Shown: positions 1-27,235 of the stretch, piece after piece | How the letters are laid out: each line of letters opens with the position of its first letter | How positions within the stretch are numbered: the stretch's first letter is position 1 | Assembly: GCF_000003605.2 (NCBI RefSeq) | Contig: NW_003143419.1 | Span: forward strand, 1-27,235 | DNA: 27,235 nucleotides | DNA from: Saccoglossus kowalevskii | Lineage: Eukaryota > Hemichordata > Enteropneusta > Harrimaniidae | Reading direction: 5' to 3' | Made by a program: the position numbers and the translations under genes | The notes under the pieces: generated by a model | What the model saw: only the letters and a program-made list of their open reading frames with translations | What the model was told of the DNA's origin: nothing | Database searches by the model: none

Positions 1-56
1 GGTTAGGACATTGCCTTGTGGCCGCAATAACCCAGGTTCGAATCCTGGTCTCGGCA
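1..56 (+). tRNA. tRNA-His (GUG), 5'-truncated by window edge
   Basis: Begins at gene position 17, inside the D loop. Anticodon GTG is at 18-20. G31C gives a C31-C39 clash at the base of the anticodon loop. The T arm and 3' acceptor strand are consensus. Class A spacer follows. It is duplicated almost exactly at 4075-4146. Confidence 0.85.
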
Positions 57-247
57 GATTGTGCTATATGTAGTTTTTGTTGTTTTGCGTCGTATTTTGG
101 AATTCTTCATTCAATTTTTAATTCCAGGGTAACAGGTTAGCAAACATAATCATGCAGTCATCAAAAACTGTAGAATAAATGCAAGATCAATGCACTATAC
201 TTATTCGTTGCGTCGTGAGTAACACGTAATACGAACATGACTGGCTA

Positions 248-319
248 GACGTGATCGTCTAGTGGTTAGGACATTCCGTTGTGGCCACAATAACCCAGGT
301 TCAAATCCTGGTTTCGGCA
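248..319 (+). tRNA. tRNA-His-like (GUG), degenerate
   Basis: Differences from consensus are C2A, G29C, G40A, G56A and C66T. A2-G70, C29-C41 and C30-A40 do not pair, and G6-U66 is a wobble. The loop half reads as the perfect palindrome TTGTGGCCACAA. Class D spacer follows. Probably a decayed copy. Its duplicate is 4338-4409. Confidence 0.65.
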
Positions 320-516
320 GATTGTGCGATATATCGTTGATTTGTTGTTTTGTGTCGTATTTTGGCATTCTACATTCAATTCCATTTCAGAGTGACAGGT
401 TAGCAAACATATTCACGCAGTCATCATAAATTGTAGATTAAAAGCAAGATCAATGCACTATACTAATTCGTTCGTCGCTTACTGAGTAGCACGTAATCCG
501 AACATGACTCTAGTTA
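320..516 (+). repeat. Class D spacer (type example)
   Basis: 197 bases. Diagnostic words are GTTGATTTG, TGTGTCG, GGCATTC, CATTTCAGAGTGACAGG and CATATTCACG. The first T4 is only at 348-351. It follows copies with TTTCGGCA or related ends and is usually followed by the ACTCTAGTTA flank. No gene seen inside. Confidence 0.8.
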
Positions 517-588
517 GCCGTGATCGTCTAGTGGTTAGGACATTGCGTTGTGGTGGCAATAACCTAAGTTCGAATCCTGGTCTCGGCA
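517..588 (+). pseudogene. tRNA-His pseudogene (GUG), chimeric
   Basis: C38T, C39G, C49T and G51A break the last anticodon-stem pair (G31-G39) and the T stem (A51-C61 mismatch). The upstream flank (ACTCTAGTTA) is the one normally found before AUG copies, yet the body is GUG, so a recombination switch lies inside the gene. Class A spacer with GTTGTTG in place of the T5 run. Confidence 0.65.
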
Positions 589-778
589 GATTGTGCTATA
601 TGTAGTTGTTGTTGTTTTGCGTCGTATTTTGGAATTCTACATTCAATTTTAATTCCAGGGTAACAGGTTGGCAAACATAATCACGCAGTCATCAAAAACT
701 GTGGATTAAATGCAAGATCATTGCACTATACTTATTCGTCGCTTACTGAGTAGCACGTAATCCGAACATGACTGGCTA

Positions 779-850
779 GCCGTGATCGTCTAGTGGTTAG
801 GACATTGCGTTGTGTTCGCAATAACCCAGTTTCGAATCCTGGTCTCGGCA
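779..850 (+). tRNA. tRNA-His-like (GUG), loop and T-stem changes
   Basis: G37T and C38T alter the 3' side of the anticodon loop, and G52T breaks the pair closing the T loop and weakens the B box. The acceptor is as in consensus. Class C spacer follows with a T7 run at 865-871. Confidence 0.7.
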
Positions 851-1038
851 GATTGTGCGATATGTTTTTTTATTGTTTTGAGTCGTATTTTGGAATTCTA
901 CATTCAATTCTATTCCAGGGTAACAGGTTAGTAAACATAATCACGCAGTCATCATCAACTGTGGATTAAATGCAAGATCAATGCACTATAATTATTCGTC
1001 GCTTACTGAGTAACACGTAATCCGAACATGACTGGCTA
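851..1038 (+). repeat. Class C spacer (type example)
   Basis: 188 bases. It carries T7, GAGTCG, CTATTCCAGGGTAACAGG, GTTAGTAAACAT and CTATAATTATTCG. The TATA-like CTATAATTA lies about 54 bases before the next gene and could serve as an upstream element, though its role is unproven. No coding content. Confidence 0.8.
865..871 (+). terminator. Pol III T7 terminator, class C spacer (representative)
   Basis: Seven T residues begin 15 bases after the 779 copy. This is the strongest terminator type in the array and is typical of class C spacers. Confidence 0.65.
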
Positions 1039-1045
1039 GCCGTGA

Positions 1046-1056
1046 TCGTCTAGTGG
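1046..1056 (+). promoter_or_regulatory. Internal A box (representative)
   Basis: TCGTCTAGTGG in the D arm of the 1039 copy fits the Pol III A box (TRGYNNAGNGG-like), with C in the second place. The same box sits 8-18 bases into every copy. A14 is replaced in the 4833, 6094, 8646, 11203 and 16806 copies. Confidence 0.75.
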
Positions 1057-1088
1057 TTAGGACATTGCGTTGTGGCCGCAATAACCCA

Positions 1089-1099
1089 GGTTCGAATCC
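1089..1099 (+). promoter_or_regulatory. Internal B box (representative)
   Basis: GGTTCGAATCC in the T arm is a textbook TFIIIC-binding B box. It is the best-kept element of the array. The core is lost in ten copies only (starts 779, 6094, 8646, 10446, 10708, 12465, 14516, 18068, 18328, 20582). Confidence 0.85.
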
Positions 1100-1110
1100 T
1101 GGTCTCGGCA

Positions 1111-1302
1111 GATTGTGCTATATGTAGTTTTTGTTGTTTTGCGTCGTATTTTGGAATTCTACATTCAATTTTAATTCCAGGGTAACGGGTTAGCAAACAT
1201 AATCATGCAGTCATCATAAACTGTAGATTAAATGCAAGATCATTGCACTATACTTATTCGTCGCTTACTGAGTAGCACGTAATCCGAACATGACTCTAGT
1301 TA
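1111..1302 (+). repeat. Class A spacer (type example)
   Basis: 192 bases and the commonest class. It has TATATGTAG, T5, GCGTCGTATTTTGG, an EcoRI site in GGAATTC, AATTTTAATTCCAGGG and CTATACTTATTCGTCG, then the ATCCGAACATGACT flank. No coding content. Confidence 0.85.
1128..1132 (+). terminator. Pol III T5 terminator, class A spacer (representative)
   Basis: A TTTTT run follows the tRNA by 17 bases in class A spacers, with a further T4 at 1137-1140. Pol III stops at runs of four or more T. The same run recurs after most class A copies. It is interrupted after the 517, 5307 and 7332 copies (GTTGTTG) and the 3321 copy (GTTTTCG). Confidence 0.7.
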
Positions 1303-1374
1303 CCCGTGATCGTTTAGTGGTTAGGACATTTCGTTATGGCCACAATAACCCAGGTTCGAATCCTGGTCTCGGCA
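1303..1374 (+). tRNA. tRNA-His-like (AUG), degenerate
   Basis: AUG class: G29T, G34A and G40A. T29-C41 and C30-A40 fail to pair, leaving three of five anticodon-stem pairs. In addition G1C breaks the terminal pair and C12T makes a wobble. Class B spacer follows. Confidence 0.6.
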
Positions 1375-2314: not shown

Positions 2315-2386
2315 GCCGTGATCGTCTAGTGGTTAGGACATTTCGTTATGGCCACAATAACCCAGGTTCGAATCCTGGTCTCGGCA
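2315..2386 (+). tRNA. tRNA-His-like (AUG), base form
   Basis: Base form of the AUG class: only G29T, G34A and G40A. Acceptor, D and T arms equal consensus, so decay is confined to the anticodon arm. If used, A34 would be expected to become inosine. The 5' flank is ACTCTAGTTA. Class B spacer. Confidence 0.7.
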
Positions 2387-7930: not shown

Positions 7931-8120
7931 GATTGTGCTATATGTAGTTTTTGTTGTTTTGCGTCGTATTTTGAAATTCTTCATTCAATTTTAATTCCAG
8001 GGTAACAGGTTAGCAAACATAATCATGCAGTCATCAAAAACTGTAGAATAAATGCAAGATCAATGCACTATACTTATTCGTTGCTTCTTGAGTAACACGT
8101 AATACGAACATGACTTTCTA

Positions 8121-8192
8121 GACGTGATCGTCTAGTGGTTAGGACATTCCGTTGTGGCCACAATAACCCAGGTTCGAATCCTGGTTTCGGCA
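8121..8192 (+). tRNA. tRNA-His-like (GUG), C2A + CACAA
   Basis: C2A, G29C, G40A, C66T. Mismatches A2-G70, C29-C41 and C30-A40. Flank ACTTTCTA is unusual. Class D spacer. Confidence 0.65.
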
Positions 8193-8385
8193 GATTGTGC
8201 GATATGTTGTTGACTTGCTGTTTTGTGTCGTATTTTGGCATTCTACATTCATTTTCATATCAGAGTGACAGGTTAGCAAACATATTCACGCAGTCATCAT
8301 AAACTGTAGATTAAATGCGAGATCAATGCACTATACTTATTCGTCGCTTACTGAGTAGCACGTAATACGAACATGACTCTAGTCA

Positions 8386-8457
8386 TCCGTGATCGTCTAG
8401 TGGTTATGACATTCTGTTATGGCCACAATAACCCAGGTTCGAATCCTGGTCTCGGCA
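8386..8457 (+). tRNA. tRNA-His-like (AUG), degenerate
   Basis: G1T, G22T, G29C, C30T, G34A, G40A. Duplicate of 5834 without T65A. Class C spacer. Confidence 0.55.
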
Positions 8458-8645
8458 GATTGTGCGAAATGTCATTTTATTGTTTTGAGTCGCATTTTGA
8501 AATTCTACATTCAATTCTATTCCAGGGTAACAGGTTAGTAAACATAATCACGCAGTCATCATAAACTGTGGATTAAATGCAAGATCAATGCACTATAATT
8601 ATTCGTCGCTTACTGAGTAACACGTAATCCGAACATGACTGGCTA

Positions 8646-8717
8646 GCCGTGATCGTCTTGTGGTTAGGACATTCCGTTGTGGCCGCAATAACCCAGGTCA
8701 GAATCCTGATCTCGGCA
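8646..8717 (+). pseudogene. tRNA-His pseudogene (GUG), B box destroyed
   Basis: Same five changes as 6094 (A14T, G29C, T54C, C55A, G64A), so the defect predates the duplication. Class A spacer. Confidence 0.65.
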
Positions 8718-8907
8718 GATTGTGCTATATGTAGTTTTTGTTGTTTTGCGTCGTATTTTGGAATTCTTCATTCAATTTTAATTCCTGGGTAACAGGTTAG
8801 CAAACATAATCATGCAGTCATCAAAAACTGTAGATTAAATGCAAGATCAATGCACTATACTCATTCGTTGCTTCCCGAGTAACATGTAATACGAACATGA
8901 CTGGCTA

Positions 8908-8979
8908 GCCGTGATCGTCTAGTGGTTAGGACATTGCGTTGTGGCCGCAATAACCCAGGTTCAAATCCTGGTCTCGGCA
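8908..8979 (+). tRNA. tRNA-His (GUG), G56A
   Basis: Single T-loop change. The loop reads TTCAAAT, still a good B box. Class A spacer. Confidence 0.9.
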
Positions 8980-9171
8980 GATTGTGCTATATGTAGTTTT
9001 TGTTGTTTTGCGTCGTATTTTGGAATTCTACATTCAATTTTAATTCCAGGGTAACAGGTTAGCAAACATAATCATGCAGTCATCAAAAACTGTAGATTAA
9101 ATGCAAGATCATTGCACTATACTTATTCGTCGCTTACTGAGTAGCACGTAATCCTAACATGACTCTAGTTA

Positions 9172-9243
9172 GCCGTGATCGTCTAGTGGTTAGTACATTT
9201 AGTTATGGCCACAATAACCCAGGTTCGAATCCTGGTCTCGGCA
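9172..9243 (+). tRNA. tRNA-His-like (AUG), degenerate
   Basis: G23T, G29T, C30A, G34A, G40A, as in 6620. The class B spacer has lost one A in CAAAATC. Confidence 0.55.
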
Positions 9244-9395
9244 GATTGTGCGATATGTCGTTGTTTTCTTGTTTTAAGTCGTATTTTGGGATTCTACATT
9301 CAATTCTATTCCAGGTAACAGGTTCGCAAACAAATCAATGCACTATACTTGCTTTTCGTTTACATGATTCTTGGAAATTCGAAAATGTCTGACTA

Positions 9396-9467
9396 GCCGT
9401 TATCGTCTAGTGGTTAGGACATTGCGTTGTGGCCGCAATAACCTAGGTTCGAATCCTGGTCTCGGCA
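9396..9467 (+). tRNA. tRNA-His (GUG), G6T + C49T
   Basis: Duplicate of 6845, with two adjacent acceptor mismatches. Class A spacer. Confidence 0.75.
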
Positions 9468-9657
9468 GATTGTGCTATATGTAGTTTTTGTTGTTTTGCG
9501 TCGTATTTTGGAATTCTACATTCAATTTTAATTCCAGGGTAACAGGTTGGCAAACATAATCACGCAGTCATCATAAACTGTAGATTAAATGCAAGATCAT
9601 TGCACTATACTTATTCGTCGCTTACTGAGTAGCACGTAATCCGAACATGACTGGCTA

Positions 9658-9729
9658 GCCGTGATCGTCTAGTGGTTAGGACATTGCGTTGTGGCCGCAA
9701 TAACCCAGGTTCGAATCCTGGTCTCGACA
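9658..9729 (+). tRNA. tRNA-His (GUG), G70A
   Basis: G70A gives a C2-A70 mismatch. The spacer starts GTTGTGC rather than ATTGTGC, begins as class A and changes to class D near CCATTTCATAG. Confidence 0.75.
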
Positions 9730-9920
9730 GGTTGTGCTATATGTAGTTTTTATTGTTTTGCGTCGTATTTTGGAATTCTTCATTCAATTCCATTTCATAG
9801 TGACAGGTTAGCAAACATAATCATGCAGTCATCATGAACTGTAGATTAAATGCGAGATCAATGCACTATACTTATTCGTTGCTTCTTGAGTAACATGTAA
9901 TCCGAACATGACTCTAGTTA

Positions 9921-9992
9921 GACGTGATCATCTAGTGGTTAGGACATTCCGTTGTGGCCACAATAACCCAGGTTCGAATCCTGGTTTCGGCA
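9921..9992 (+). tRNA. tRNA-His-like (GUG), degenerate
   Basis: C2A, G10A, G29C, G40A, C66T. G10A removes the first D-stem pair. It has the ACTCTAGTTA flank typical of AUG copies. Class D spacer. Confidence 0.6.
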
Positions 9993-10185
9993 GATTGTGC
10001 GATATGTAGTTGATTTGCTGTTTTGTGTCGTATTTTGGCATTCTACATTCAATTCCATTTCATAGTGACAGGTTAGCAAACATATTCACGCAGTCATCAT
10101 AAACTGTAGATTAAATGCGAGATCAATGCACTATACTTATTCGTCGCTTACTGAGTAGCACGTAATCCGAACATGACTCTAGTTA

Positions 10186-10257
10186 GCCGTGATCGTCTAG
10201 TGGTTAGGACATTCTGCTATGGCCACAATAACCCAGGTTCGAATCCTGGTCTCGGAA
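10186..10257 (+). tRNA. tRNA-His-like (AUG), C71A
   Basis: G29C, C30T, T32C, G34A, G40A, C71A. The terminal G1 faces A71, where G-1 addition and aminoacylation are read. Class C spacer. Confidence 0.55.
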
Positions 10258-10445
10258 GATTGTGCGAAATGTATTTTTATTGTTTTGAGTCGTATTTTGG
10301 AATTCTACATTCAATTCTATTCCAGGGTAACAGGTTAGTAAACATAATCACACAGTCATCATAAACTGTGGATTAAATGCAAGATCAATGCACTATAATT
10401 ATTCGTCGCTTACTGAGTAACACGTAATCCGAGCATGACTGGCTA

Positions 10446-10517
10446 GCCGAGATCGTCTAGTGGTTAGGACATTGCGTTGTGGCCGCAATAACCCAGGGTC
10501 GAATCCTGGTCTCGGCA
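10446..10517 (+). tRNA. tRNA-His (GUG), acceptor repaired, T53G
   Basis: T5A pairs with U67, so all seven acceptor pairs form. T53G changes the B box to GGGTCGAATCC and alters the first T-loop base. Class A spacer. Confidence 0.8.
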
Positions 10518-10707
10518 GATAGTGCTATATGTAGTTTTTGTTGTTTTGCGTCGTATTTTGGAATTCTTCATTCAATTTTAATTCCAGGGTAACAGGTTAG
10601 CAAACATAATCATGCAGTCATCGAAAACTGTAGAATAAATGCAAGATCAATGCACTATACTTATTCGTTGCGTCGTGAGTAACACGTAATACGAACATGA
10701 CTGGCTA

Positions 10708-10779
10708 GACGTGATCGTCTAGTGGTTAGGACATTGCGTTGTGGCCGCAATAACCCAGGGTCGAATCCTGGTTTCGGCA
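10708..10779 (+). tRNA. tRNA-His-like (GUG), C2A + T53G
   Basis: C2A, T53G, C66T. It shares T53G with the preceding copy, a sign of local conversion. The anticodon arm is intact. Class D spacer. Confidence 0.65.
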
Positions 10780-10976
10780 GATTGTGCGATATGTCGTTGA
10801 TTTGTTGTTTTGTGTCGTATTTTGGCATTCTACATTCAATTCCATTTCAGAGTGACAGGTTAGCAAACATATTCACGCAGTCATCATAAACTGTAGATTA
10901 AATGCAAGATCAATGCACTATACTTATTCGTTCGTCGCTTACTGAGTAGCACGTAATCCGAACATGACTCTAGTTA

Positions 10977-11048
10977 GCCGTGATCGTCTAGTGGTTGGGA
11001 CATTCCGCTATGGCCACAATAACCCAGGTTCGAATCCTGGGCTCGGCA
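10977..11048 (+). tRNA. tRNA-His-like (AUG), CTATGGC loop
   Basis: A21G, G29C, T32C, G34A, G40A, T65G. Close relative of 4607. Class B spacer. Confidence 0.6.
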
Positions 11049-11202
11049 GATTGTGCGATATATCGTTGTTTTGTTGTTTTAAGTCGTATTTTGGGATTCT
11101 ACATTCAATTCTTTTCCAGGGTAACAGGTTCGCAAACAAAATCAATGCACTATACTTGCTTTTCGTTTACATGATTCTTGGAAATTCGAACCTGTCTGGC
11201 TA

Positions 11203-11274
11203 GCCGTGATCGTCTCGTGGTTAGGACATTGCGTTGTGGCCGCAATAACCCAGGTTCGAATCCTGGTCTTGGCA
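11203..11274 (+). tRNA. tRNA-His (GUG), A14C
   Basis: A14C and C68T, as 4833. The class C spacer has the same 11-base deletion. Confidence 0.75.
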
Positions 11275-11451
11275 GATTGTGCGATATGTTTTTTCATTGT
11301 TTTGAGTCGGATTTTGGAATTCTACATTCAATTCTATTCCAGGGTAAACATAATCACGCAGTCATCATAAACTGTGGATTAAATGCAAGATCAATGCACT
11401 ATAATTATTCGTCGCTTACTGAGTAACACGTAATCCGAACATGACTGGCTA

Positions 11452-11523
11452 GCCGTGATCGTCTAGTGGTTAGGACATTGCGTTGTGGCCGCAATAACCC
11501 AGGTTCGAATCCTGGTCTCGGCA
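11452..11523 (+). tRNA. tRNA-His (GUG), consensus copy
   Basis: Identical to consensus. Class A spacer (TTCATTC subtype). Confidence 0.95.
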
Positions 11524-11713
11524 GATTGTGCTATATGTAGTTTTTGTTGTTTTGCGTCGTATTTTGGAATTCTTCATTCAATTTTAATTCCAGGGTAACA
11601 GGTTAGCAAACATAATCATGCAGTCATCGAAAACTGTAAATTAAATGCAAGATCAATGCAGTATACTCATTCGTTGCTTCCCGAGTAACACGTAATACGA
11701 ACATGACTGGCTA

Positions 11714-11785
11714 GACGTGATCGTCTAGTGGTTAGGACATTGCGTTGTGGCCGCAATAACCCAGGTTCGAATCCTGGTCTCGGCA
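11714..11785 (+). tRNA. tRNA-His (GUG), C2A
   Basis: C2A only: A2-G70 mismatch, flank CTAGACG. Class A spacer. Confidence 0.8.
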
Positions 11786-11977
11786 GATTGTGCTATATGT
11801 AGTTTTTGTTGTTTTGCGTCGTATTTTGGAATTCTACATTCAATTTTAATTCCAGGGTAACAGGTTGGCAAACATAATCACGCAGTCATCTTAAACTGTA
11901 GATTAAATGCAAGATCATTGCACTATACTTATTCGTCGCTTACTGAGTAGCACGTAATCCAAACTAGACTCTAGTTA

Positions 11978-12049
11978 GCCGTGATCGTCTAGTGGTTAGG
12001 ACATTTCGTTATGGCCACAATAACCCAGGTTCGAATCCTGGTCTCGGCA
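11978..12049 (+). tRNA. tRNA-His-like (AUG), base form
   Basis: G29T, G34A, G40A. The flank has AAACTAGACT instead of GAACATGACT. Class B spacer. Confidence 0.7.
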
Positions 12050-12202
12050 GATTGTGCGATATGTCGATGTTTTGTTGTTTTAAGTCGTATTTTGGGATTC
12101 TACATTCAATTCTATTCCAGGTAACAGGTTCGCAAACAAAATCAATGCACTATACTTGCTTTTCGTTTACATGATTCTTGGAAATTCGAACATGTCTGAC
12201 CA

Positions 12203-12274
12203 GCCGTGATCGTCAAGTGGTTAGGACATTGCGTTGTGGCCGCAATAACCTAGGTTCGAATCCTGGTCTCGGCA
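12203..12274 (+). tRNA. tRNA-His (GUG), T13A + C49T
   Basis: D stem loses its closing wobble; T-stem wobble 49-63. Class A spacer. Confidence 0.8.
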
Positions 12275-12464
12275 GATTGTGCTATATGTAGTTTTTGTTG
12301 TTTTGCGTCGTATTTTGGAATTCTACATTCAATTTTAATTCCAGGGTAACAGGTTGGCAAACATAATCACGCAGTCATCATAAACTGTAGATTAAATGCA
12401 ATATCATTGCACTATACTTATTCGTCGCTTACTGAGTAGCACGTAATCCGAACATGACTGGCTA

Positions 12465-12536
12465 GCCGTGATCGTCTAGTGGTTAGGACATTGCGTTGTG
12501 GCCGCAATAACCCTGTTTCGAATCATGGTCTCGGCA
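12465..12536 (+). pseudogene. tRNA-His pseudogene (GUG), T stem lost
   Basis: A50T, G52T and C61A leave only two of five T-stem pairs and damage both edges of the B box. The anticodon arm is intact. Class C spacer. Duplicate at 18068. Confidence 0.65.
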
Positions 12537-12724
12537 GATTGTGCGATATGTTTTTTTATTGTTTTGAGTCGTAATTTGGAAATCTACATTCAATTCTATT
12601 CCAGGGTAACAGGTTAGTAAACATAATCACGCAGTCATCATAAACTGTGGATTAAATGCAAGATCAATGCACTATAATTATTCGTCGCTTACTGAGTAAC
12701 ATGTAATCCGAACATGACTGGCTA

Positions 12725-12796
12725 GCCGTGATCGTCTAGTGGTTAGAACATTGTGTTGTGGCCGCAATAACCCAGGTTCGAATCCTGGTTTCGGTA
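12725..12796 (+). tRNA. tRNA-His-like (GUG), TTGTG anticodon stem
   Basis: G23A and C71T break pairs 12-23 and weaken 1-71 (to G-U). C66T is a wobble. C30T gives TTGTG, which wobbles with CGCAA but would fully pair with the CACAA of the AUG class. Class D spacer. Confidence 0.65.
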
Positions 12797-12989
12797 GATT
12801 GTGCGATATGTAGTTGATTTGCTGTTTTGTGTCGTATTTTGGCATTCTACATTCAATTCCATTTCAGAGTGACAGGTTAGCAAACATATTCACGCAGTCA
12901 TCATAAACTGTAGATTAAATGCGAGATCAATGCACTATACTTATTCGTCGCTTACTGAGTAGCACGTAATCCGAACATGACTCTAGTTA

Positions 12990-13061
12990 GCCGTGATCGT
13001 CTAGTGGTTAGGACATTCTGTTATGGCCACAATAACCCAGGTTCGAATCCTGGTCTCGGAA
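12990..13061 (+). tRNA. tRNA-His-like (AUG), C71A
   Basis: G29C, C30T, G34A, G40A, C71A. One anticodon-stem mismatch and an open terminal acceptor pair. Class C spacer. Confidence 0.55.
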
Positions 13062-13249
13062 GATTGTGCAAAATGTCTTTTTATTGTTTTGAGTCGTATT
13101 TTGGAATTCTACATTCAATTCTATTCCCGGGTAACAGGTTAGTAAACATAATCACACAGTCATCATAAACTGTGGATTAAATGCAAGATCAATGCACTAT
13201 AATTATTCGTCGCTTACTGAGTAACACGTAATCCGAGCATGACTGGCTA

Positions 13250-13321
13250 GCCGAGATCGTCTAGTGGTTAGGACATTGCGTTGTGGCCGCAATAACCCAG
13301 GTTCGAATCCTGGTCTCGGCA
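13250..13321 (+). tRNA. tRNA-His (GUG), fully paired copy
   Basis: Only change is T5A, which pairs with U67. With acceptor, D, anticodon and T stems all closed and an intact B box, it is the best-folded tRNA-His in the window. The class A spacer has T5. If only some copies are functional, this one is the first candidate. Confidence 0.95.
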
Positions 13322-13513
13322 GATTGTGCTACATGTAGTTTTTGTTGTTTTGCGTCGTATTTTGGAATTCTACATTCAATTTTAATTCCAGGGTAACGGG
13401 TTAGCAAACATAATCATGCAGTCATCATAAACTGTAGATTAAATGCAAGATCATTGCACTATACTTATTCGTCGCTTACTGAGTAGCACGTAATCCGAAC
13501 ATGACTCTACATA

Positions 13514-13585
13514 GCCGTGATCGTCTAGTGGTTAGGACATTTCGTTATGGCCACAATAACCCAGGTTCGAATCCTGGTCTCGCCA
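13514..13585 (+). tRNA. tRNA-His-like (AUG), G70C
   Basis: G29T, G34A, G40A plus G70C (C2-C70 mismatch). The flank is ACTCTACATA. The class B spacer is shortened by about 8 more bases (GTCATTGTTTTAAG). Confidence 0.6.
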
Positions 13586-13730
13586 GATTGTGCAATATGT
13601 CATTGTTTTAAGTCGTATTTTGGGATTCTACATTCAATTCTATTCCAGGTAACAGGTTCGCAAACAAAATCAATGCACTATACTTGCTTTTCGTTTACAT
13701 GATTCTTGGAAATTCGAACATGTCTGACTA

Positions 13731-13802
13731 GCCGTGATCGTCTAGTGGTTAGGACATTGCGTTGTGGCCGCAATAACCTAGGTTCGAATCCTGGTCTCGG
13801 CA
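13731..13802 (+). tRNA. tRNA-His (GUG), C49T class
   Basis: C49T alone. The spacer starts as class A and switches to class D at GGCATTC. Confidence 0.88.
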
Positions 13803-13993
13803 GATTGTGCTATATGTAGTTTTTGTTGTTTTGCGTCGTATTTTGGCATTCTACATTCAATTCCATTTCAGAGTGACAGGTTAGCAAACATATTCACGCA
13901 GTCATCATAAACTGTAGATTAAATGCGAGATCAATGCACTATACTTATTCGTCGCTTACTGAGTAGCACGTAATCCGAACATGACTCTAGTTA

Positions 13994-14065
13994 GCCGTGA
14001 TCGTCTAGTCGTTAGGACATTCTGTTATGGCCACAATAACCCAGGTTCGAATCCTGGTCTCGGCA
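13994..14065 (+). tRNA. tRNA-His-like (AUG), G17C
   Basis: G17C removes a D-loop guanine. G29C, C30T, G34A and G40A leave one anticodon-stem mismatch. Class C spacer. Confidence 0.6.
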
Positions 14066-14253
14066 GATTGTGCGAAATGTCTTTTTATTGTTTTGAGTCG
14101 TATTTTGGAATTCTACATTCAATTCTATTCCAGTGTAACAGGTTAGTAAACATAAGCACGCAGTCATCATAAACTGTGGATTAAATGCAAGATCAATGCA
14201 CTATAATTATTCGTCGCTTGCTGAGTAACACGTAATCCGAACATGACTGGCTA

Positions 14254-14325
14254 GCCGTGATCGTCTAGTGGTTAGGACATTGCGTTGTGGCCGCAATAAC
14301 CCAGGTTCGAATCCTGATCTCGGCA
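14254..14325 (+). tRNA. tRNA-His (GUG), G64A
   Basis: G64A opens T-stem pair 48-64; the B box is intact. Class A spacer. Repeated at 18830. Confidence 0.8.
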
Positions 14326-14515
14326 GATTGTGCTATATGTAGTTTTTGTTGTTTTGCGTCGTATTTTGGAATTCTTCATTCAATTTTAATTCCAGGGTAA
14401 CAGGTTAGCAAACATAATCATGCAGTCATCAAAAACTGTAGATTAAATGCAAGATCAATGCACTATACTCATTCGTTGCTCCCTGAGTAACACGTAATAC
14501 GAAAATGACTGGCTA

Positions 14516-14587
14516 GCCGTGATCGTCTAGTGGTTAGGACATTGCGCTGTGGCCGCAATAACCCAGGTTCGAATGCTGGTCTCGGCA
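14516..14587 (+). tRNA. tRNA-His (GUG), T32C + C60G
   Basis: C60G breaks the pair closing the T loop and the last conserved B-box base. T32C is in the anticodon loop. Class A spacer. Confidence 0.7.
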
Positions 14588-14779
14588 GATTGTGCTATAT
14601 GTAGTTTTTGTTGTTTTGCGTCGTATTTTGGAATTCTACATTCAATTTTATTTCCAGGGTAACAGGTTGGCAAACATAATCACGCAGTCATCATAAACTG
14701 TAGATTAAATGCAAGATCATTGCACTATACTTATTCGTCTCTTACTGAGTAGCACGTAATCCGAACATGACTCTAGTTA

Positions 14780-14851
14780 GCCGTGATCGTCTAGTGGTTA
14801 AGACATTTCGTTATGGCCACAATAACCCAGGTTCGAATCCTGGTCTCGGCA
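14780..14851 (+). tRNA. tRNA-His-like (AUG), G22A
   Basis: AUG base changes plus G22A, which turns the U13-G22 wobble into U-A. Class B spacer, last part CTTGGTTTTCG. Confidence 0.7.
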
Positions 14852-15004
14852 GATTGTGCGATATGTCGTTGTTTTGTTGTTTTAAGTCGTATTTTGGGAT
14901 TCTACATTCAATTCTATTCCAGGTAACAGGTTCGCAAACAAAATCAATGCACTATACTTGGTTTTCGTTTACATGATTCTTGGAAATTCGAACATGTCTG
15001 ACTA

Positions 15005-15076
15005 GCCGTGATCGTCTAGTGGTTAGGACATTGCGTTGTGGCCGCAATAACCCAGGTTCGAATCCTGGTCTCGGCA
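15005..15076 (+). tRNA. tRNA-His (GUG), consensus copy
   Basis: Consensus body behind a class B spacer, where a C49T copy would be expected. Class A spacer follows. Confidence 0.95.
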
Positions 15077-15266
15077 GATTGTGCTATATGTAGTTTTTGT
15101 TGTTTTGCGTCGTATTTTGGAATTCTACATTCAATTTTAATTCCAGGGTAACAGGTTGGCAAACATAATCACGCAGTCATCATAAACTGTGGATTAAATG
15201 CAAGATCATTGCACTATACTTATTCGTCGCTTACTGAGTAGCACGTAATCCGAACATGACTGGCCA

Positions 15267-15338
15267 GCCGTGATCGTCTAGTGGTTAGGACATTGCGTTG
15301 TGGCCGCAATAACCCAGGTTCGAATCCTGGTCTCGGCA
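15267..15338 (+). tRNA. tRNA-His (GUG), consensus copy
   Basis: Identical to consensus. Flank GGCCAG. Class C spacer with T7. Confidence 0.95.
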
Positions 15339-15526
15339 GATTGTGCGATATGTTTTTTTATTGTTTTGAGTCGTATTTTGGAATTCTACATTCAATTCTA
15401 TTCCAGGGTAACAGGTTAGTAAACATAATCACGCAGTCATCATCAACTGTGGATTAAATGCAAGATCAATCCACTATAATTATTCGTCGCTTACTGAGTA
15501 ACACGTAATCCGAACCTGACTGGCTA

Positions 15527-15598
15527 GCCGTGATCATCTAGTGGTTAGGACATTGCGTTGTGGCCGCAATAACCCAGGTTCGAATCCTGGTCTCGGCA
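15527..15598 (+). tRNA. tRNA-His (GUG), G10A
   Basis: G10A opens D-stem pair 10-25 and changes the A box. Class A spacer. Confidence 0.8.
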
Positions 15599-15792
15599 GA
15601 TTGTGCTATATGTAGTTTTTGTTGTTTTGCGTTGTATTTTGGAATTCTACATTCAATTTTATTTCCAGGGGGTAACGGGTTAGCAAACATAATCATGCAG
15701 TCATCATAAACTGTAGATTAAATGCAAGATCATTGCACTATACTTATTCGTCGCTTACTGAGTAGCACGTAATCCAAACATGACTCTAGTTA

Positions 15793-15864
15793 GCCGTGAT
15801 CGTCTAGTGGTTAGGACATTTCGTTATGGCCACAATAACCCAGGTTCGAATCCTGGTCTCGGCA
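15793..15864 (+). tRNA. tRNA-His-like (AUG), class A spacer
   Basis: AUG base form followed by a class A, not class B, spacer, so recombination joined an AUG body to a GUG-type 3' side. Confidence 0.7.
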
Positions 15865-16054
15865 GATTGTGCTATATGTAGTTTTTGTTGTTTTGCGTCG
15901 TATTTTGGAATTCTACATTCAATTTTAATTCCAGGGTAACAGGTTGGCAAACATAATCACGCAGTCATCATAAACTGTAGATTAAATGCAAGATCAATGC
16001 ACTATACTTATTCGTTGCTTCCTGAGTAACACGTAATACGAACATGACTGGCTA

Positions 16055-16126
16055 GCCGTGATCGTCTAGTAGTTAGCACATTGCGTTGTGGCCGCAATAA
16101 CCCTGGTTCGAATCCTGGTCTAGGCA
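16055..16126 (+). tRNA. tRNA-His-like (GUG), TCTAGGCA class
   Basis: G17A, G23C, A50T, C68A. D-loop guanine lost and mismatches 12-23, 50-62 and 4-68. Class E spacer. Confidence 0.6.
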
Positions 16127-16315
16127 GATTGTGCGATATGTCGTTTTTGTTGTTTTGCGTCGTATTTGGGAATTCTTCATTCAATTTTAATTCCAGGGTA
16201 ACAGGTTAGCAAACATAATCATGCAGTCATCATGAACTGTGATTAAATGCAAGATCAATGCACTATACTTATTCGTTGCTTCGTGAGTAACACGTAATAC
16301 GAACATGACTGGCTA

Positions 16316-20581: not shown

Positions 20582-20653
20582 GCCGTGATCGTCTAGTGGT
20601 TAGGACATTGCGTTGTGGCCGCAATAACCCAGGTTAGAATCCTGGTCTCGGCA
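20582..20653 (+). tRNA. tRNA-His (GUG), C55A
   Basis: C55A turns the B box into GGTTAGAATCC and would impair TFIIIC binding. Stems as in consensus. The flank carries the private AATATGAACATG. Class A spacer. Confidence 0.7.
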
Positions 20654-20843
20654 GATTGTGCTATATGTAGTTTTTGTTGTTTTGAGTCGTATTTTGGAAT
20701 TCTACATTCAATTTTAATTCCAGGGTAACAGGTTGGCAAACATAATCACGCAGTCATCATAAACTGTAGATTAAATGCAAGATCATTGCACTATACTTAT
20801 TCGTCGCTTACTGAGTAACACGTAATCCGAACATGACTGGCTA

Positions 20844-20915
20844 GCCGTGATCGTCTAGTGGTTAGGACATTGCGTTGTGGCCGCAATAACCCAGGTTCGA
20901 ATCCTGGTCTCGGCA
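20844..20915 (+). tRNA. tRNA-His (GUG), consensus copy
   Basis: Identical to consensus. Class A spacer with the GGGTAACGGG subtype. Confidence 0.95.
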
Positions 20916-21105
20916 GATTGTGCTATATGTAGTTTTTGTTGTTTTGCGTCGTATTTTGGAATTCTACATTCAATTTTAATTCCAGGGTAACGGGTTAGCA
21001 AACATAATCATGCAGTCATCATAAACTGTAGATTAAATGCAAGATCAATGCACTATACTTATTCGTTGCTTCCTGAGTAACACGTAATACGAACATGACT
21101 GGCTA

Positions 21106-21177
21106 GCCGTGATCGTCTAGTGGTTAGCACATTGCGTTGTGGCCGCAATAAAACAGGTTCGAATCCTGGTCTAGGCA
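21106..21177 (+). tRNA. tRNA-His-like (GUG), TCTAGGCA class
   Basis: G23C, C47A, C48A, C68A. The outer T-stem pair 48-64 is lost. Class E spacer. Confidence 0.6.
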
Positions 21178-21367
21178 GATTGTGCGATATGTCGTTTTTG
21201 TTGTTTTGCGTCGTATTTGGGAATTCTTCATTCAATTTTAATTCCAGGGTAACAGGTTAGCAAACATAATCATGCAGTCATCATGAACTGTGGATTAAAT
21301 GCAAGATCAATGCACTATACTTATTCGTTGCTTCCTGAGTAACACGTAATATGAACATGACTGGCTA

Positions 21368-21439
21368 GCCGTGATCGTCTAGTGGTTAGGACATTGCGTT
21401 GTGGCCGCAATAACCCAGGTTCGAATCCTGGTCTCGGCA
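21368..21439 (+). tRNA. tRNA-His (GUG), consensus copy
   Basis: Identical to consensus, with the AATATGAACATG flank shared with 20582. Class A spacer. Confidence 0.95.
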
Positions 21440-21629
21440 GATTGTGCTATATGTAGTTTTTGTTGTTTTGCGTCGTATTTTGGAATTCTACATTCAATTT
21501 TAATTCCAGGGTAACAGGTTGGCAAACATAATCACGCAGTCATCATAAACTGTAGATTAAATGCAAGATCATTGCACTATACTTATTCGTCGCTTACTGA
21601 GTAACACGTAATCCGAACATGACTGGCTA

Positions 21630-21701
21630 GCCGTGATCGTCTAGTGGTTAGGACATTGCGTTGTGGCCGCAATAACCCAGGTTCGAATCCTGGTCTCGGC
21701 A
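21630..21701 (+). tRNA. tRNA-His (GUG), consensus copy
   Basis: Identical to consensus, 786 bases after 20844. Class A spacer. Confidence 0.95.
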
Positions 21702-21893
21702 GATTGTGCTATATGTAGTTTTTGTTGTTTTGCGTCGTATTTTGGAATTCTACATTCAATTTTAATTCCAGGGTAACGGGTTAGCAAACATAATCATGCA
21801 GTCATCATAAACTGTAGATTAAATGCAAGATCATTGCACTATACTTATTCGTCGCTTACTGAGTAGCACGTAATCCGAACATGACTCTAGTTA

Positions 21894-21965
21894 GCCGTGA
21901 TCGTCTAGTGGTTAAGACATTTCGTTATGGCCACAATAACCCAGGTTCGAATCCTGGTCTCGGCA
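21894..21965 (+). tRNA. tRNA-His-like (AUG), G22A
   Basis: AUG base form plus G22A. The class B spacer is shortened, with changed runs (GTTGTTTAAG, GGGGATC). Confidence 0.68.
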
Positions 21966-22108
21966 GATTGTGCGATATGTCGTTGTTTAAGTCGAATTTG
22001 GGGATCTACATTCAATTCTATTCCAGGTAACAGGTTCGCAAACAAAATCAATGCACTATACTTTCTTTTCGTTTACATGATTCTTGGAAATTCGAACATG
22101 TCTGACTA

Positions 22109-22180
22109 GCCGTGATCGTCTAGTGGTTAGGACATTGCGTTGTGGCCGCAATAACCTAGGTTCGAATCCCGGTCTCGGCA
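22109..22180 (+). tRNA. tRNA-His (GUG), C49T + T62C
   Basis: T62C opens the middle T-stem pair 50-62. C49T is a wobble. Class A spacer. Confidence 0.78.
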
Positions 22181-22370
22181 GATTGTGCTATATGTAGTTT
22201 TTGTTGTTTTGCGTCGTATTTTGGAATTCTACATTCAATTTTAATTCCAGGGTAACAGGTTGGCAAACATAATCACGCAGTCATCATAAACTGTAGATTA
22301 AATGCAAGATCAATGCACTATACTTATTCGTTGCTTCCTGAGTAACACGTAGTACGAACATGACTGGCTA

Positions 22371-22442
22371 GCCGTGATCGTCAAGTGGTTAGCACATTGC
22401 GTTGTGGCCGCAATAACCCAGGTTCGAATCCTGGTCTAGGCA
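22371..22442 (+). tRNA. tRNA-His-like (GUG), TCTAGGCA class
   Basis: T13A, G23C, C68A. Two of four D-stem pairs are lost. Class E spacer. Confidence 0.62.
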
Positions 22443-22632
22443 GATTGTGCGATATGTCGTTTTTGTTGTTTTGCGTCGTATTTGGGAATTCTTCATTCAA
22501 TTTTAATTCCAGGGTAACAGGTTAGCAAACATAATCATGCAGTCATCATGAACTGTGGATTAAATGCAACATCAATGCACTATACTTATTCGTTGCGTCC
22601 TGAGTAACACGTAATACGAACATGACTGGCTA

Positions 22633-22704
22633 GCCGTGATCGTCTAGTGGTTAGGACATTGCGTTGTGGCTGCAATAACCCAGGTTCGAATCCTGGTCTC
22701 GGCA
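22633..22704 (+). tRNA. tRNA-His (GUG), C39T
   Basis: C39T makes a G31-U39 wobble next to the loop. Class A spacer. Confidence 0.88.
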
Positions 22705-22896
22705 GATTGTGCTATATGTAGTTTTTGTTGTTTTGCGTCGTATTTTGGAATTCTACATTCAATTTTAATTCCAGGGTAACAGGTTGGCAAACATAATCAC
22801 GCAGTCATCATAAACTGTAGATTAAATGCAAGATCATTGCACTATACTTATTCGTCGCTTACTGAGTAGCACGTAATCCGAATATGACTCTAGTTA

Positions 22897-22968
22897 GCCG
22901 TGATCGTCTAGTGGTTAGGACATTTCGTTATGGCCACAATAACCCAGGTTCGAATCCTGGTCTCAGCA
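22897..22968 (+). tRNA. tRNA-His-like (AUG), G69A
   Basis: AUG base form plus G69A (C3-A69 mismatch). Class B spacer with TCATTGCACTG. Confidence 0.62.
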
Positions 22969-23121
22969 GATTGTGCGATATGTCGTTGTTTTGTTGTTTT
23001 AAGTCGTATTTTGGGATTCTACATTCAATTCTATTCCAGGTAACAGGTTCGCAAACAAAATCATTGCACTGTACTTGATTTTCGTTTACATGATTCTTGG
23101 AAATTCGAACATGTCTGACTA

Positions 23122-23193
23122 GCCGTGATCGTCTAGTGGTTAGGACATTGCGTTGTGGCCGCAATAACCTAGGTTCGAATCCTGGTCTCGGCA
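23122..23193 (+). tRNA. tRNA-His (GUG), C49T class
   Basis: C49T alone, after class B. Class A spacer. Confidence 0.88.
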
Positions 23194-23385
23194 GATTGTG
23201 CTATATGTAGTTTTTGTTGTTTTGCGTCGTATTTTGGAATTCTACATTCAATTTTAATTCCAGGGTAACGGGTTAGCAAACATAATCATGCAGTCATCAT
23301 AAACTGTAGATTAAATGCAAGATCATTGCACTATACTTATTCGTCGCTTACTGAGTAGCACGTAATCCGAACATGACTCTAGTTA

Positions 23386-23457
23386 GCCGTGATCGTCTAG
23401 TGGTTAGGACATTTCGTTATGGCCGCAATAACCCAGGTTCGAATCCTGGTCTAGGCA
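23386..23457 (+). tRNA. tRNA-His-like (AUG), chimera with TCTAGGCA end
   Basis: G29T, G34A and C68A, but G40 is kept, so only T29-C41 fails in the anticodon stem. The 5' half is AUG-class; the 3' half and class E spacer come from the TCTAGGCA class. The switch lies at positions 35-40. Confidence 0.65.
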
Positions 23458-23647
23458 GATTGTGCGATATGTCGTTTTTGTTGTTTTGCGTCGTATTTGG
23501 GAATTCTTCATTCAATTTTAATTCCAGGGTAACAGGTTAGCAAACATAATCATGCAGTCATCATGAACTGTGGATTAAATGCAAGATCAATGCACTATAC
23601 TTATTCGTTGCTTCCTGAGTAACACGTAATACGAACATGACTGGCTA

Positions 23648-23719
23648 GCCGTGATCGTCTAGTGGTTAGGACATTGCGTTGTGGCCGCAATAACCTGGGT
23701 TCGAATCCTGGTCTCGGCA
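23648..23719 (+). tRNA. tRNA-His (GUG), C49T + A50G
   Basis: Two adjacent wobbles in the T stem (49-63, 50-62). Class A spacer. Confidence 0.85.
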
Positions 23720-23909
23720 GATTGTGCTATGTGTAGTTTTTGTTGTTTTGCGTCGTATTTTGGAATTCTACATTCAATTTTAATTCCAGGGTAACAGGTT
23801 GGCAAACATAATCACGCAGTCATCATAAACTGTAGATTAAATGCAAGATCAATGCACTATACTTATTCGTTACTTCCTGAGTAACACGTAATACGAACAT
23901 GACTGGCTA

Positions 23910-23981
23910 GCCGTGATCGTCTAGTGGTTAGCACATTGCGTTGTGGCCGCAATAACCCAGGTTCGAATCCTGGTCTAGGCA
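23910..23981 (+). tRNA. tRNA-His-like (GUG), TCTAGGCA class
   Basis: G23C and C68A. The class E spacer has lost one T in each of two runs. Confidence 0.68.
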
Positions 23982-24169
23982 GATTGTGCGATATGTCGTT
24001 TTTGTTGTTTGCGTCGTATTGGGAATTCTTCATTCAATTTTAATTCCAGGGTAACAGGTTAGCAAACATAATCATGCAGTCATCATGAACTGTGGATTAA
24101 ATGCAAGATCAATGCACTATACTTATTCGTTGCTTCCTGAGTAACACGTAATATGAACATGACTGGCTA

Positions 24170-24241
24170 GCCGTGATCGTCTAGTGGTTAGGACATTTCG
24201 TTATGGCCACAATAACCCAGGTTCGAATCCTGGTCTCGGCA
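24170..24241 (+). tRNA. tRNA-His-like (AUG), GGCTA flank
   Basis: AUG base form. The only AUG copy with the GUG-type flank ACTGGCTA, and followed by class A, so an AUG core has been inserted into a GUG unit, as in gene conversion. Confidence 0.7.
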
Positions 24242-24433
24242 GATTGTGCTATATGTAGTTTTTGTTGTTTTGCGTCGTATTTTGGAATTCTACATTCAAT
24301 TTTAATTCCAGGGTAACGGGTTAGCAAACATAATCATGCAGTCATCATAAACTGTAGATTAAATGCAAGATCATTGCACTATACTTATTCGTCGCTTACT
24401 GAGTAGCACGTAATCCGAACATGACTCTAGTTA

Positions 24434-24505
24434 GCCGTGATCGTCTAGTGGTTAGGACATTTCGTTATGGCCACAATAACCCAGGTTCGAATCCTGGTCT
24501 CGGCA
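24434..24505 (+). tRNA. tRNA-His-like (AUG), base form
   Basis: AUG base form directly after another AUG copy. Shortened class B spacer. Confidence 0.7.
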
Positions 24506-24650
24506 GATTGTGCGATATGTCATTGTTTTAAGTCGTATTTTGGGATTCTACATTCAATTCTATTCCAGGTAACAGGTTCGCAAACAAAATCAATGCACTA
24601 TACTTGCTTTTCGTTTACATGATTCTTGGAAATTCGAACATGTCTGACTA

Positions 24651-24722
24651 GCCGTGATCGTCTAGTGGTTAGGACATTGCGTTGTGGCCGCAATAACCTA
24701 GGTTCGAATCCTGGTCTCGGCA
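24651..24722 (+). tRNA. tRNA-His (GUG), C49T class
   Basis: C49T alone. Class A spacer ends in the rare GTAGTTCGAATATG flank. Confidence 0.88.
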
Positions 24723-24912
24723 GATTGTGCTATATGTAGTTTTTGTTGTTTTGCGTCGTATTTTGGAATTCTACATTCAATTTTAATTCCAGGGTAACAG
24801 GTTGGCAAACATAATCACGCAGTCATCATAAACTGTAGATTAAATGCAAGATCAATGCACTATACTTATTCGTTGCTTCTTGAGTAACACGTAGTTCGAA
24901 TATGACTGGCTA

Positions 24913-24984
24913 GACGTGATCGTCTAGTGGTTAGGACATTCCGTTGTGGCCACAATAACCCAGGTTCGAATCCTGGTTTCGGCA
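24913..24984 (+). tRNA. tRNA-His-like (GUG), C2A + CACAA
   Basis: C2A, G29C, G40A, C66T. The spacer starts as class C (T7) and continues as class A. Partner of 26440. Confidence 0.65.
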
Positions 24985-25175
24985 GATTGTGCGATATGTT
25001 TTTTTGTTGTTTTGCGTCATATTTTGGAATTCTACATTCAATTTTAATTCCAGGGTAACAGGTTGGCAAACATAATCACGCAGTCATCATAAACTGTAGA
25101 TTAAATGCAAGATCATTGCACTATACTTATTCGTCGCTTACTGAGTAGCACGTAATCCGAACATGACTCTAGTTA

Positions 25176-25247
25176 GCCGTGATCGTCTAGTGGTTAGGAC
25201 ATTTCGTTATGGCCACAATAACCCAGGTTCGAATCCTGGTCTCGGCA
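25176..25247 (+). tRNA. tRNA-His-like (AUG), class A/C spacer
   Basis: AUG base form. The spacer is class A at the start, class C at the end (CATCAACTGTGG, CTATAATTA). Three single A residues are missing just before the next gene (about 25410-25422). Confidence 0.7.
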
Positions 25248-25434
25248 GATTGTGCTATATGTAGTTTTTGTTGTTTTGCGTCGTATTTTGGAATTCTACA
25301 TTCAATTTTAATTCCAGGGTAACAGGTTGGCAAACATAATCACGCAGTCATCATCAACTGTGGATTAAATGCAAGATCAATGCACTATAATTATTCGTCG
25401 CTTACTGAGTACACGTATCCGACATGACTGGTTA

Positions 25435-25506
25435 GCCGTGATCGTCTAGTGGTTAGGACATTGCGTTGTGGCCGCAATAACCCAGGTTCGAATCCTGGTC
25501 TCGGCA
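25435..25506 (+). tRNA. tRNA-His (GUG), consensus copy
   Basis: Identical to consensus, flank GGTTA. Class A spacer. Confidence 0.95.
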
Positions 25507-25698
25507 GATTGTGCTATATGTAGTTTTTGTTGTTTTGCGTCGTATTTTGGAATTCTACATTCAATTTTAATTCCAGGGTAACGGGTTAGCAAACATAATC
25601 ATGCAGTCATCATAAACTGTAGATTAAATGCAAGATCATTGCACTATACTTATTCGTCGCTTACTGAGTAGCACGTAATCCGAACATGACTCTAGTTA

Positions 25699-25770
25699 GC
25701 CGTGATCGTCTAGTGGTTAGGACATTTCGTTATGGCCACAATAACCCAGGTTCGAAACCTGGTCTCGGCA
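25699..25770 (+). tRNA. tRNA-His-like (AUG), T59A
   Basis: AUG base form plus T59A in the T loop. Shortened class B spacer. Confidence 0.66.
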
Positions 25771-25915
25771 GATTGTGCGATATGTCATTGTTTTAAGTCG
25801 TATTTTGGGATTCTACATTCAATTCTATTCCAGGTAACAGGTTCGCAAACAAAATCAATGCACTATACTTGCTTTTCGTTTACATGATTCTTGGAAATTC
25901 GAACATGTCTGACTA

Positions 25916-25987
25916 GCCGTGATCGTCTAGTGGTTAGGACATTGCGTTGTGGCCGCAATAACCTAGGTTCGAATCCTGGTCTCGGCA
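25916..25987 (+). tRNA. tRNA-His (GUG), C49T class
   Basis: C49T alone. Class A spacer. Confidence 0.88.
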
Positions 25988-26177
25988 GATTGTGCTATAT
26001 GTAGTTTTTGTTGTTTTGCGTCGTATTTTGGAATTCTACATTCAATTTTAATTCCAGGGTAACAGGTTGGCAAACATAATCACGCAGTCATCATAAACTG
26101 TGGATTAAATGCAAGACCATTGCACTATACTTATTCGTCGCTTACTGAGTAGCACGTAATCCGAACATGACTGGCTA

Positions 26178-26249
26178 GCCGTGATCGTCTAGTGGTTAGG
26201 ACATTGCGTTGTGGCCGCAATAACCCAGGTTCGAATCCTGGTCTCGGCA
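26178..26249 (+). tRNA. tRNA-His (GUG), consensus copy
   Basis: Identical to consensus. An extra unit with no partner in the preceding 24.7-25.2 kb module. Class A spacer. Confidence 0.95.
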
Positions 26250-26439
26250 GATTGTGCTATATGTAGTTTTTGTTGTTTTGTGTCGTATTTTGGAATTCTA
26301 CATTCAACTTTAATTCCAGGGTAACAGGTTAGCAAACATAATCATGCAGTCATCAAAAACTGTAGAATAAATGCAAGATCAATGCACTATACTTCTTGGT
26401 TGCTTCTTGAGTAACACGTAGTTCGAACATGACTGGCTA

Positions 26440-26511
26440 GACGTGATCGTCTAGTGGTTAGGACATTCCGTTGTGGCCACAATAACCCAGGTTCGAATCC
26501 TGGTTTCGGCA
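26440..26511 (+). tRNA. tRNA-His-like (GUG), C2A + CACAA
   Basis: Same changes as 24913 (C2A, G29C, G40A, C66T) and same T7 hybrid spacer. Confidence 0.65.
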
Positions 26512-26702
26512 GATTGTGCGATATGTTTTTTTGTTGTTTTGCGTCATATTTTGGAATTCTACATTCAATTTTAATTCCAGGGTAACAGGTTGGCAAACAT
26601 AATCACGCAGTCATCATAAACTGTAGATTAAATGCAAGATCATTGCACTATACTTATTCGTCGCTTACTGAGTAGCACGTAATCCGAACATGACTGTAGT
26701 TA

Positions 26703-26774
26703 GCCGTGATCGTCTAGTGGTTAGGACATTTCGTTATGGCCACAATAACCCAGGTTCGAATCCTGGTCTCGGCA
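26703..26774 (+). tRNA. tRNA-His-like (AUG), base form
   Basis: AUG base form with flank ACTGTAGTTA. The spacer is the A/C hybrid of 25176, here without the missing A residues. Confidence 0.7.
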
Positions 26775-26964
26775 GATTGTGCTATATGTAGTTTTTGTTG
26801 TTTTGCGTCGTATTTTGGAATTCTACATTCAATTTTAATTCCAGGGTAACAGGTTGGCAAACATAATCACGCAGTCATCATCAACTGTGGATTAAATGCA
26901 AGATCAATGCACTATAATTATTCGTCGCTTACTGAGTAACACGTAATCCGAACATGACTGGTTA

Positions 26965-27036
26965 GCCGTGATCGTCTAGTGGTTAGGACATTGCGTTGTG
27001 GCCGCAATAACCCAGGTTCGAATCCTGGTCTCGGCA
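26965..27036 (+). tRNA. tRNA-His (GUG), consensus copy
   Basis: Identical to consensus, flank GGTTA as in 25435. Class A spacer. Confidence 0.95.
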
Positions 27037-27228
27037 GATTGTGCTATATGTAGTTTTTGTTGTTTTGCGTCGTATTTTGGAATTCTACATTCAATTTTAA
27101 TTCCAGGGTAACGGGTTAGCAAACATAATCATGCAGTCATCATAAACTGTAGATTAAATGCAAGATCATTGCACTATACTTATTCGTCGCTTACTGAGTA
27201 GCACGTAATCCGAACATGACTCTAGTTA

Positions 27229-27235
27229 GCCGTGA
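27229..27235 (+). tRNA. tRNA-His-like, 3'-truncated by window edge
   Basis: Only GCCGTGA is present. The ACTCTAGTTA flank predicts an AUG copy, as does the partner at 25699. Confidence 0.6.

Follow-up and report, generated by a model that had tools for sequence, protein, structure and literature searches.

Histidine transfer RNA (tRNA-His) genes fill the whole of contig NW_003143419.1 (C3441) of the hemichordate Saccoglossus kowalevskii (assembly GCF_000003605.2), a stretch of 27,235 bases that we analysed from end to end and refer to as the window. We consider it probable that a tRNA-His gene has been amplified here into a satellite-like array, in which most copies have decayed and an intact minority is perhaps still transcribed. 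We prefer a satellite-like reading because the array fills several contigs, blocks of units have been duplicated, and the tRNA stems are freely broken. Spacer variants differ among the contigs, the tRNA consensus is the same in all of them, and most copies have lost the anticodon or a stem pair further to the one at 5/68 discussed below.

In short, the history of the array may have run as follows. A tRNA-His gene would have been amplified head to tail together with its own spacer, with unequal exchange or replication slippage as the likely means of growth, until the whole came to resemble satellite DNA. Little or no selection would keep single copies functional. Intact copies should be transcribable by RNA polymerase III (Pol III) from their internal boxes, and a large part of the array is probably silent, since mutant tRNAs, if made, would be a burden on the cell. 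The array may be free from constraint because the same tRNA is also encoded by four genes outside it; they could be sufficient for the tRNA-His demand.

The array and its extent

The first-pass annotation, made from the letters of the window, had proposed at least 108 head-to-tail copies, with both edges cutting through copies. This count holds if both cut copies are included: a BLAST search with a 72-base query found 107 copies, all 107 on the plus strand and the first truncated by the left edge, and a 108th is represented by its first 7 bases at the right edge. ARAGORN called 102 tRNA genes (101 His and 1 undetermined), and the Rfam tRNA model reached its gathering score 106 times. A unit is about 262 bases long, of which the tRNA takes up 72 and the spacer 190, and some units fall into shorter classes (215–226 and 249 bases). 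Two stretches of the window, used as queries, covered all 27,235 of its bases. A 29-base junction pattern matched exactly 58 times in the window versus 0 times across 100 shuffles. The G+C content is about 0.40, and no open reading frame of at least 100 amino acids (table 11) occurs in the window. The features referred to in this text, including motifs that we take to be the A box, the B box, and a Pol III terminator, are listed below.

1..27235, plus strand: whole tandem array, 107 copies and 7 bases of the 108th (BLAST, ARAGORN, Rfam)
1..56, plus strand: left-edge copy, cut on its 5' side, tRNA bases 17–72 (BLAST, Rfam)
1039..1110, plus strand: copy with the commonest tRNA sequence (19/106 whole window units), T.T at 5/68
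1046..1057, plus strand: presumed A-box region of copy 1039..1110, identical letters in 88/106 window units
1089..1099, plus strand: presumed B box of copy 1039..1110, identical letters in 89/106 window units
1128..1132, plus strand: T-run 17 bases past the tRNA of copy 1039..1110, presumably terminator-like for Pol III
2315..2386, plus strand: example of the ATG subfamily, two unpaired anticodon-stem positions (ARAGORN, unit alignment)
8105..12858, plus strand: block aligning to 13715–18459, 95.9% over 4,761 positions
9380..16310, plus strand: block aligning to 20304–27221, 93.1% over 6,963 positions
13250..13321, plus strand: top-scoring copy, 66.9 bits, A5 paired with T68 (Rfam, unit alignment)
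27229..27235, plus strand: start of the 108th copy, 7 bases, cut by the right edge

At the level of the assembly, the locus does not shrink to a few copies, and a concatemer artefact of one unit is unlikely, because the 106 whole window units hold 62 distinct tRNA sequences (the commonest in 19) and differ by 14.9% on average, gaps counted.

The same array recurs elsewhere in the assembly, which was searched over its 572,110,611 bases in 4,830 contigs. Three further contigs consist of array throughout, namely C824 (35.7 kb, 137 copies, one of them a 20-base remnant), C1317 (25.0 kb, 97 copies), and C2577 (60.2 kb, 232 copies), which brings the total over the four to 573. Within each contig all copies lie on one strand (107/107 in the window, 137/137, 97/97, and 232/232). 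Units of the window cover every base but one of the other three, and all four fully read array contigs terminate within the array. Array sequence is also present in the viewed parts of C2206 (700 bases) and C3151 (1,001 bases). Genome-wide, the junction pattern has 346 exact matches, 223 of which are inside the four array contigs; extrapolated from this ratio for 573 copies, the genome would hold about 890, a figure to be read with the unevenness of the ratio among contigs (from 58/107 to 59/232) in mind. By the same extrapolation (890 × 262 bases / 572 Mb), the array would make up about 0.04% of the genome. Searches of a viral and a prokaryote collection with one spacer pattern each gave no match. 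In C824, a truncated unit lies at 30186–30679, where the 20-base tRNA remnant is flanked by normal copies 422 bases apart.

Recurring blocks and damaged copies

Adjacent units of the window are less alike (17.5% difference) than the average pair, and the eight longest block matches within it span 3.3–7.0 kb. No simple higher-order period emerged, as no lag among 1–39 was dominant; the mean difference was lowest at lags 25 (0.129) and 11 (0.131) versus 0.149 overall. The window and C824, with 93 and 82 distinct whole spacers, have none in common. These patterns point to block duplication via unequal exchange or a like process, and not to neighbour-to-neighbour copying. Large head-to-tail arrays (the four contigs) combined with block-wise homogenisation (the 3.3–7.0 kb blocks) are what one looks for in satellite DNA, and both were found.

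For the comparison of copies, we aligned 567 whole units, having set aside 6 of the 573 because they were cut, remnants, or at an end. Only 145 of these have both a GTG anticodon and intact pairing throughout the stems apart from 5/68; units without any stem mismatch number two in the window, copy 13250–13321 among them, and one in C824. The commonest tRNA sequence of the window occurs exactly in 72/567 units; it is also the top sequence in C824 (36/135) and is present, but not top, in C1317 (6/95) and C2577 (11/231). The first-pass annotation had called the array purely tRNA-His; it is not made of GTG copies alone, as 27 of the 106 whole window copies read ATG. In 21 of these 27, the anticodon stem has at least two broken pairs. 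Elsewhere, the ATG anticodon was met in 1/135 units of C824, 0/95 of C1317, and 0/230 of C2577. This A34 subfamily (e.g., 2315–2386) is thus nearly confined to the window contig among the four read. When four copies were folded as RNA on their own, none gave a full cloverleaf: three kept the acceptor and T stems with another fold in the middle, and copy 8121–8192 lost its acceptor stem. Because the failures included the commonest sequence as well as the top-scoring copy, we draw no conclusion from the folding.

The presumed transcription signals are retained to different degrees. A run of at least four T within 36 bases after the tRNA is found in 558/567 units (105/106 in the window). The T-runs bear on one rival explanation, in which the array consists of tandem copies of a tRNA-derived short interspersed element (SINE). 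Such an origin would fit a unit that is headed by a tRNA and has a SINE-like length, but T-runs this close to the tRNA would halt Pol III early, the unit consensus lacks a 3' A-tail or simple repeat, the arrangement is strictly head to tail, and, among the junction-pattern matches listed, all are in C824 and C1317. The combination of a body beyond the tRNA, an A-rich or simple tail, and dispersal that marks a SINE was not found here, and we regard this origin as hardly credible.

Both box regions are unchanged in 268/567 units, compared with the 145 that keep the cloverleaf, although the boxes are a shorter target. This would suit a structural role, in which the array, by binding TFIIIC at its Pol III boxes, would act at a boundary, in pairing, at a centromere, or at a chromosome end, regardless of its tRNA product. 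No box allele in the window exceeds 10 copies, versus 0.12 such alleles per site in the remaining tRNA, and a telomere function is proposed for tRNA arrays of Entamoeba in the sections of PMC2652664 used here. Across the four contigs, however, some box alleles are common (77 and 23 copies at position 52, 35 at position 60, 36 at position 19, and 30 at position 13), and both boxes are unchanged in just 34/95 units of C1317 and 95/231 of C2577. We consider a structural role very unlikely.

Genes outside the array and possible selection within it

In nearly all units, T5 faces T68 (which has index 67 when the 72 bases are numbered), namely in 103/106 units of the window, 133/135 of C824, 93/95 of C1317, and 224/230 of C2577. 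In the tRNA-His of fly and human, the bases at 5/68 form a T-A pair. A search with the tRNA 3' end and a non-G trailer returned 30 matches, four of them outside array surroundings (two of the three C2206 matches fall outside the 700 bases viewed there), and a search with the trailer of these outside genes returned the same four and no others, one in C2452, one in C4205, and two in C4530. Over their 72 bases, these four genes are identical to the commonest window sequence, T5/T68 included. Their common flanks, ATTTAGCTC before the gene and TTACTCC... after it, are unlike those of the array, whose trailers begin GATTGTGC....

Because the four outside genes show the same opposition, the fixed U5-U68 is, as judged from sequence, probably a feature of the genome's own tRNA-His and not a mark of decay; this conclusion fails if a working tRNA-His gene has another sequence that the pattern searches missed. 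We had considered the T.T at 5/68 (103/106) as proof of a pseudogene array and dropped it, as the outside genes share it. Searches for other tRNA-His genes with a Watson-Crick-type 3' end pattern gave one match, within the C824 array, and those with an anticodon-side pattern excluding T27 gave 10, all in array contigs; such patterns would overlook a lone gene followed by a G trailer, or a tRNA-His that is quite different in sequence. The survey of the genome covered the tRNA-His isotype only.

Some details of the outside genes may be added. About 16 bases upstream are common to all of them, as are about 40 trailer bases up to the T-run, and beyond these flanks C2452, C4205, and C4530 look otherwise unrelated in alignment. 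The trailer starts with an imperfect inverted repeat (TTACTCC...GGTGTAA). In C4530, the two intact genes are 972 bases apart, and between them, on the minus strand at about 457–400 of the part read (L058), is a degenerate tRNA-His 5' half with a similar upstream element.

Turning to selection on the array copies, we found no depletion of stem breaks: stem-breaking and pairing-keeping alleles stand at 109:29 among rare and 17:5 among common alleles, where the opportunity is 99:21. Where both sides of a stem pair have changed, 6 cells are paired and 4 are not, too few for a test of compensation. In 40 young window pairs (<1% apart), the tRNA carries 0.0069 differences per site versus 0.0031 in the spacer, an excess that is not significant (p 0.054 for mutual nearest pairs, p 0.40 for private changes). 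Counted per contig, rare alleles per site amount to 0.81 in the tRNA, 0.65 and 0.76 in the adjoining sequence, and about 0.5 in the mid-spacer. We do not claim transcription-linked mutation, since pooling alleles over the contigs erased most of the flank effect; the pooled tRNA excess of rare alleles is weak (p 0.15 for singletons, 0.076 for alleles in up to 3 copies, and 0.006 for up to 5).

Several observations weigh against an array decaying free of constraint. In each of the four contigs, diversity is lower in the tRNA than in the spacer (ratio 0.53–0.69). The four contig consensuses differ at 0/72 tRNA versus 11/189 spacer columns (p 0.038), and, per site, common alleles in the tRNA stand at 0.50 of the spacer value and rare ones at 1.40 times it (Fisher p 1e-6), where linked alleles, subfamily linkage, and shared descent among contigs make the p-values of the selection tests too small. 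With sliding windows of 72 columns, the window contig and C824 have the same top haplotype only from columns 1 and 11. Finally, the array has 72 exact copies, as opposed to four genes outside it. Such conservation of the tRNA is what one would expect if selection acted weakly on the spread of variants. We read the mixed evidence as at most weak selection on variant spread, without upkeep of single copies.

The same observations can be taken further, to a working gene array as in ribosomal DNA (rDNA), where the host depends on the intact copies, selection bears on how many good copies there are, and decayed units are tolerated as by-products. In its favour, the tRNA region alone keeps its top haplotype between the window and C824 despite the lack of any shared whole spacer, with the same 72-mer present in C1317 and C2577 too; T-runs are kept nearly throughout, and common alleles are in deficit within the tRNA. 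On the other hand, intact-type units are the minority described above, stem-breaking alleles become numerous no less easily than other alleles, the identical 72-mer is carried by four outside genes, and the common-allele deficit is slight in C2577 (0.82). On balance we think a working array unlikely, though it deserves to be taken seriously. Rather less likely still is an rDNA-like reservoir, in which most intact tRNA-His genes would reside in a decaying satellite with selection on good-copy number only; a mutant tRNA-His(AUG) might then be made too, its A34 possibly edited to inosine.

These results also bear on the functions suggested by the first-pass annotation. A bulk supply of histidyl-tRNA is made less likely by the low share of units (145/567) that keep GTG and the stems other than 5/68 and by the existence of outside genes, although the exact array copies outnumber those four genes. 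A Pol III-based satellite, for which Pol III transcription is predicted, fits best among the three roles offered, the third being a source of tRNA fragments, given the array-filled contigs, block duplications, and broken stems.

Known systems and the meaning of the array

Satellite DNA with block-wise higher-order repeats consists of head-to-tail units whose subfamilies are shuffled in multi-unit blocks, and it fills contigs with array. The tRNA-His array shares all of these traits. What sets it apart is the tRNA gene that can be recognised in its unit and that matches the outside genes exactly in 72/567 units.

Other known systems are built from tRNA genes. Entamoeba histolytica has 25 tRNA arrays that hold almost all of its tRNA genes and make up >10% of its genome; in the sections of that source used here, the copies are described as uniform for the most part and as giving no clear sign of pseudogenes, and the function as unclear (PMC2652664). 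The layout is alike in both, as long arrays of head-to-tail units on one strand join tRNA genes (one or more per unit in Entamoeba, where some arrays have a single gene type) to AT-rich spacers, and dispersed genes occur alongside. In contrast to what those sections report, the search in S. kowalevskii was confined to, and detected, a single isotype, its extrapolated share of the genome is about 0.04%, and most copies are damaged; near-uniform copies free of pseudogenes were not found (62 tRNA sequences in 106 units, 14.9% mean difference).

Large clusters of tRNA genes with at least 50 members are reported in Nematostella and teleosts (Bermudez-Santana et al. 2010, PMC2888827). As far as the portion of that paper used here goes, they resemble the present array in lying on the same strand, being homogeneous in some species, mixing genes with pseudogenes, and turning over fast. 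That portion does not name any tRNA-His array with copies in the hundreds, and in Nematostella and zebrafish the pairs are mostly heterogeneous, unlike those described here. Rapid pseudogenisation of tRNA genes forms part of the background in the section of PMC4981973 used here. Among open-licence papers, we found none that describes such a tRNA-His array.

Read in this way, the array would be a case of one tRNA gene turning satellite-like, in which intact, damaged, and anticodon-changed copies occur together and identical genes outside the array serve as a yardstick. It may thus offer a natural test of the extent to which unequal exchange, and not tRNA demand, sets the number of tRNA genes, and of how a cell with hundreds of copies keeps clear of mutant tRNAs.

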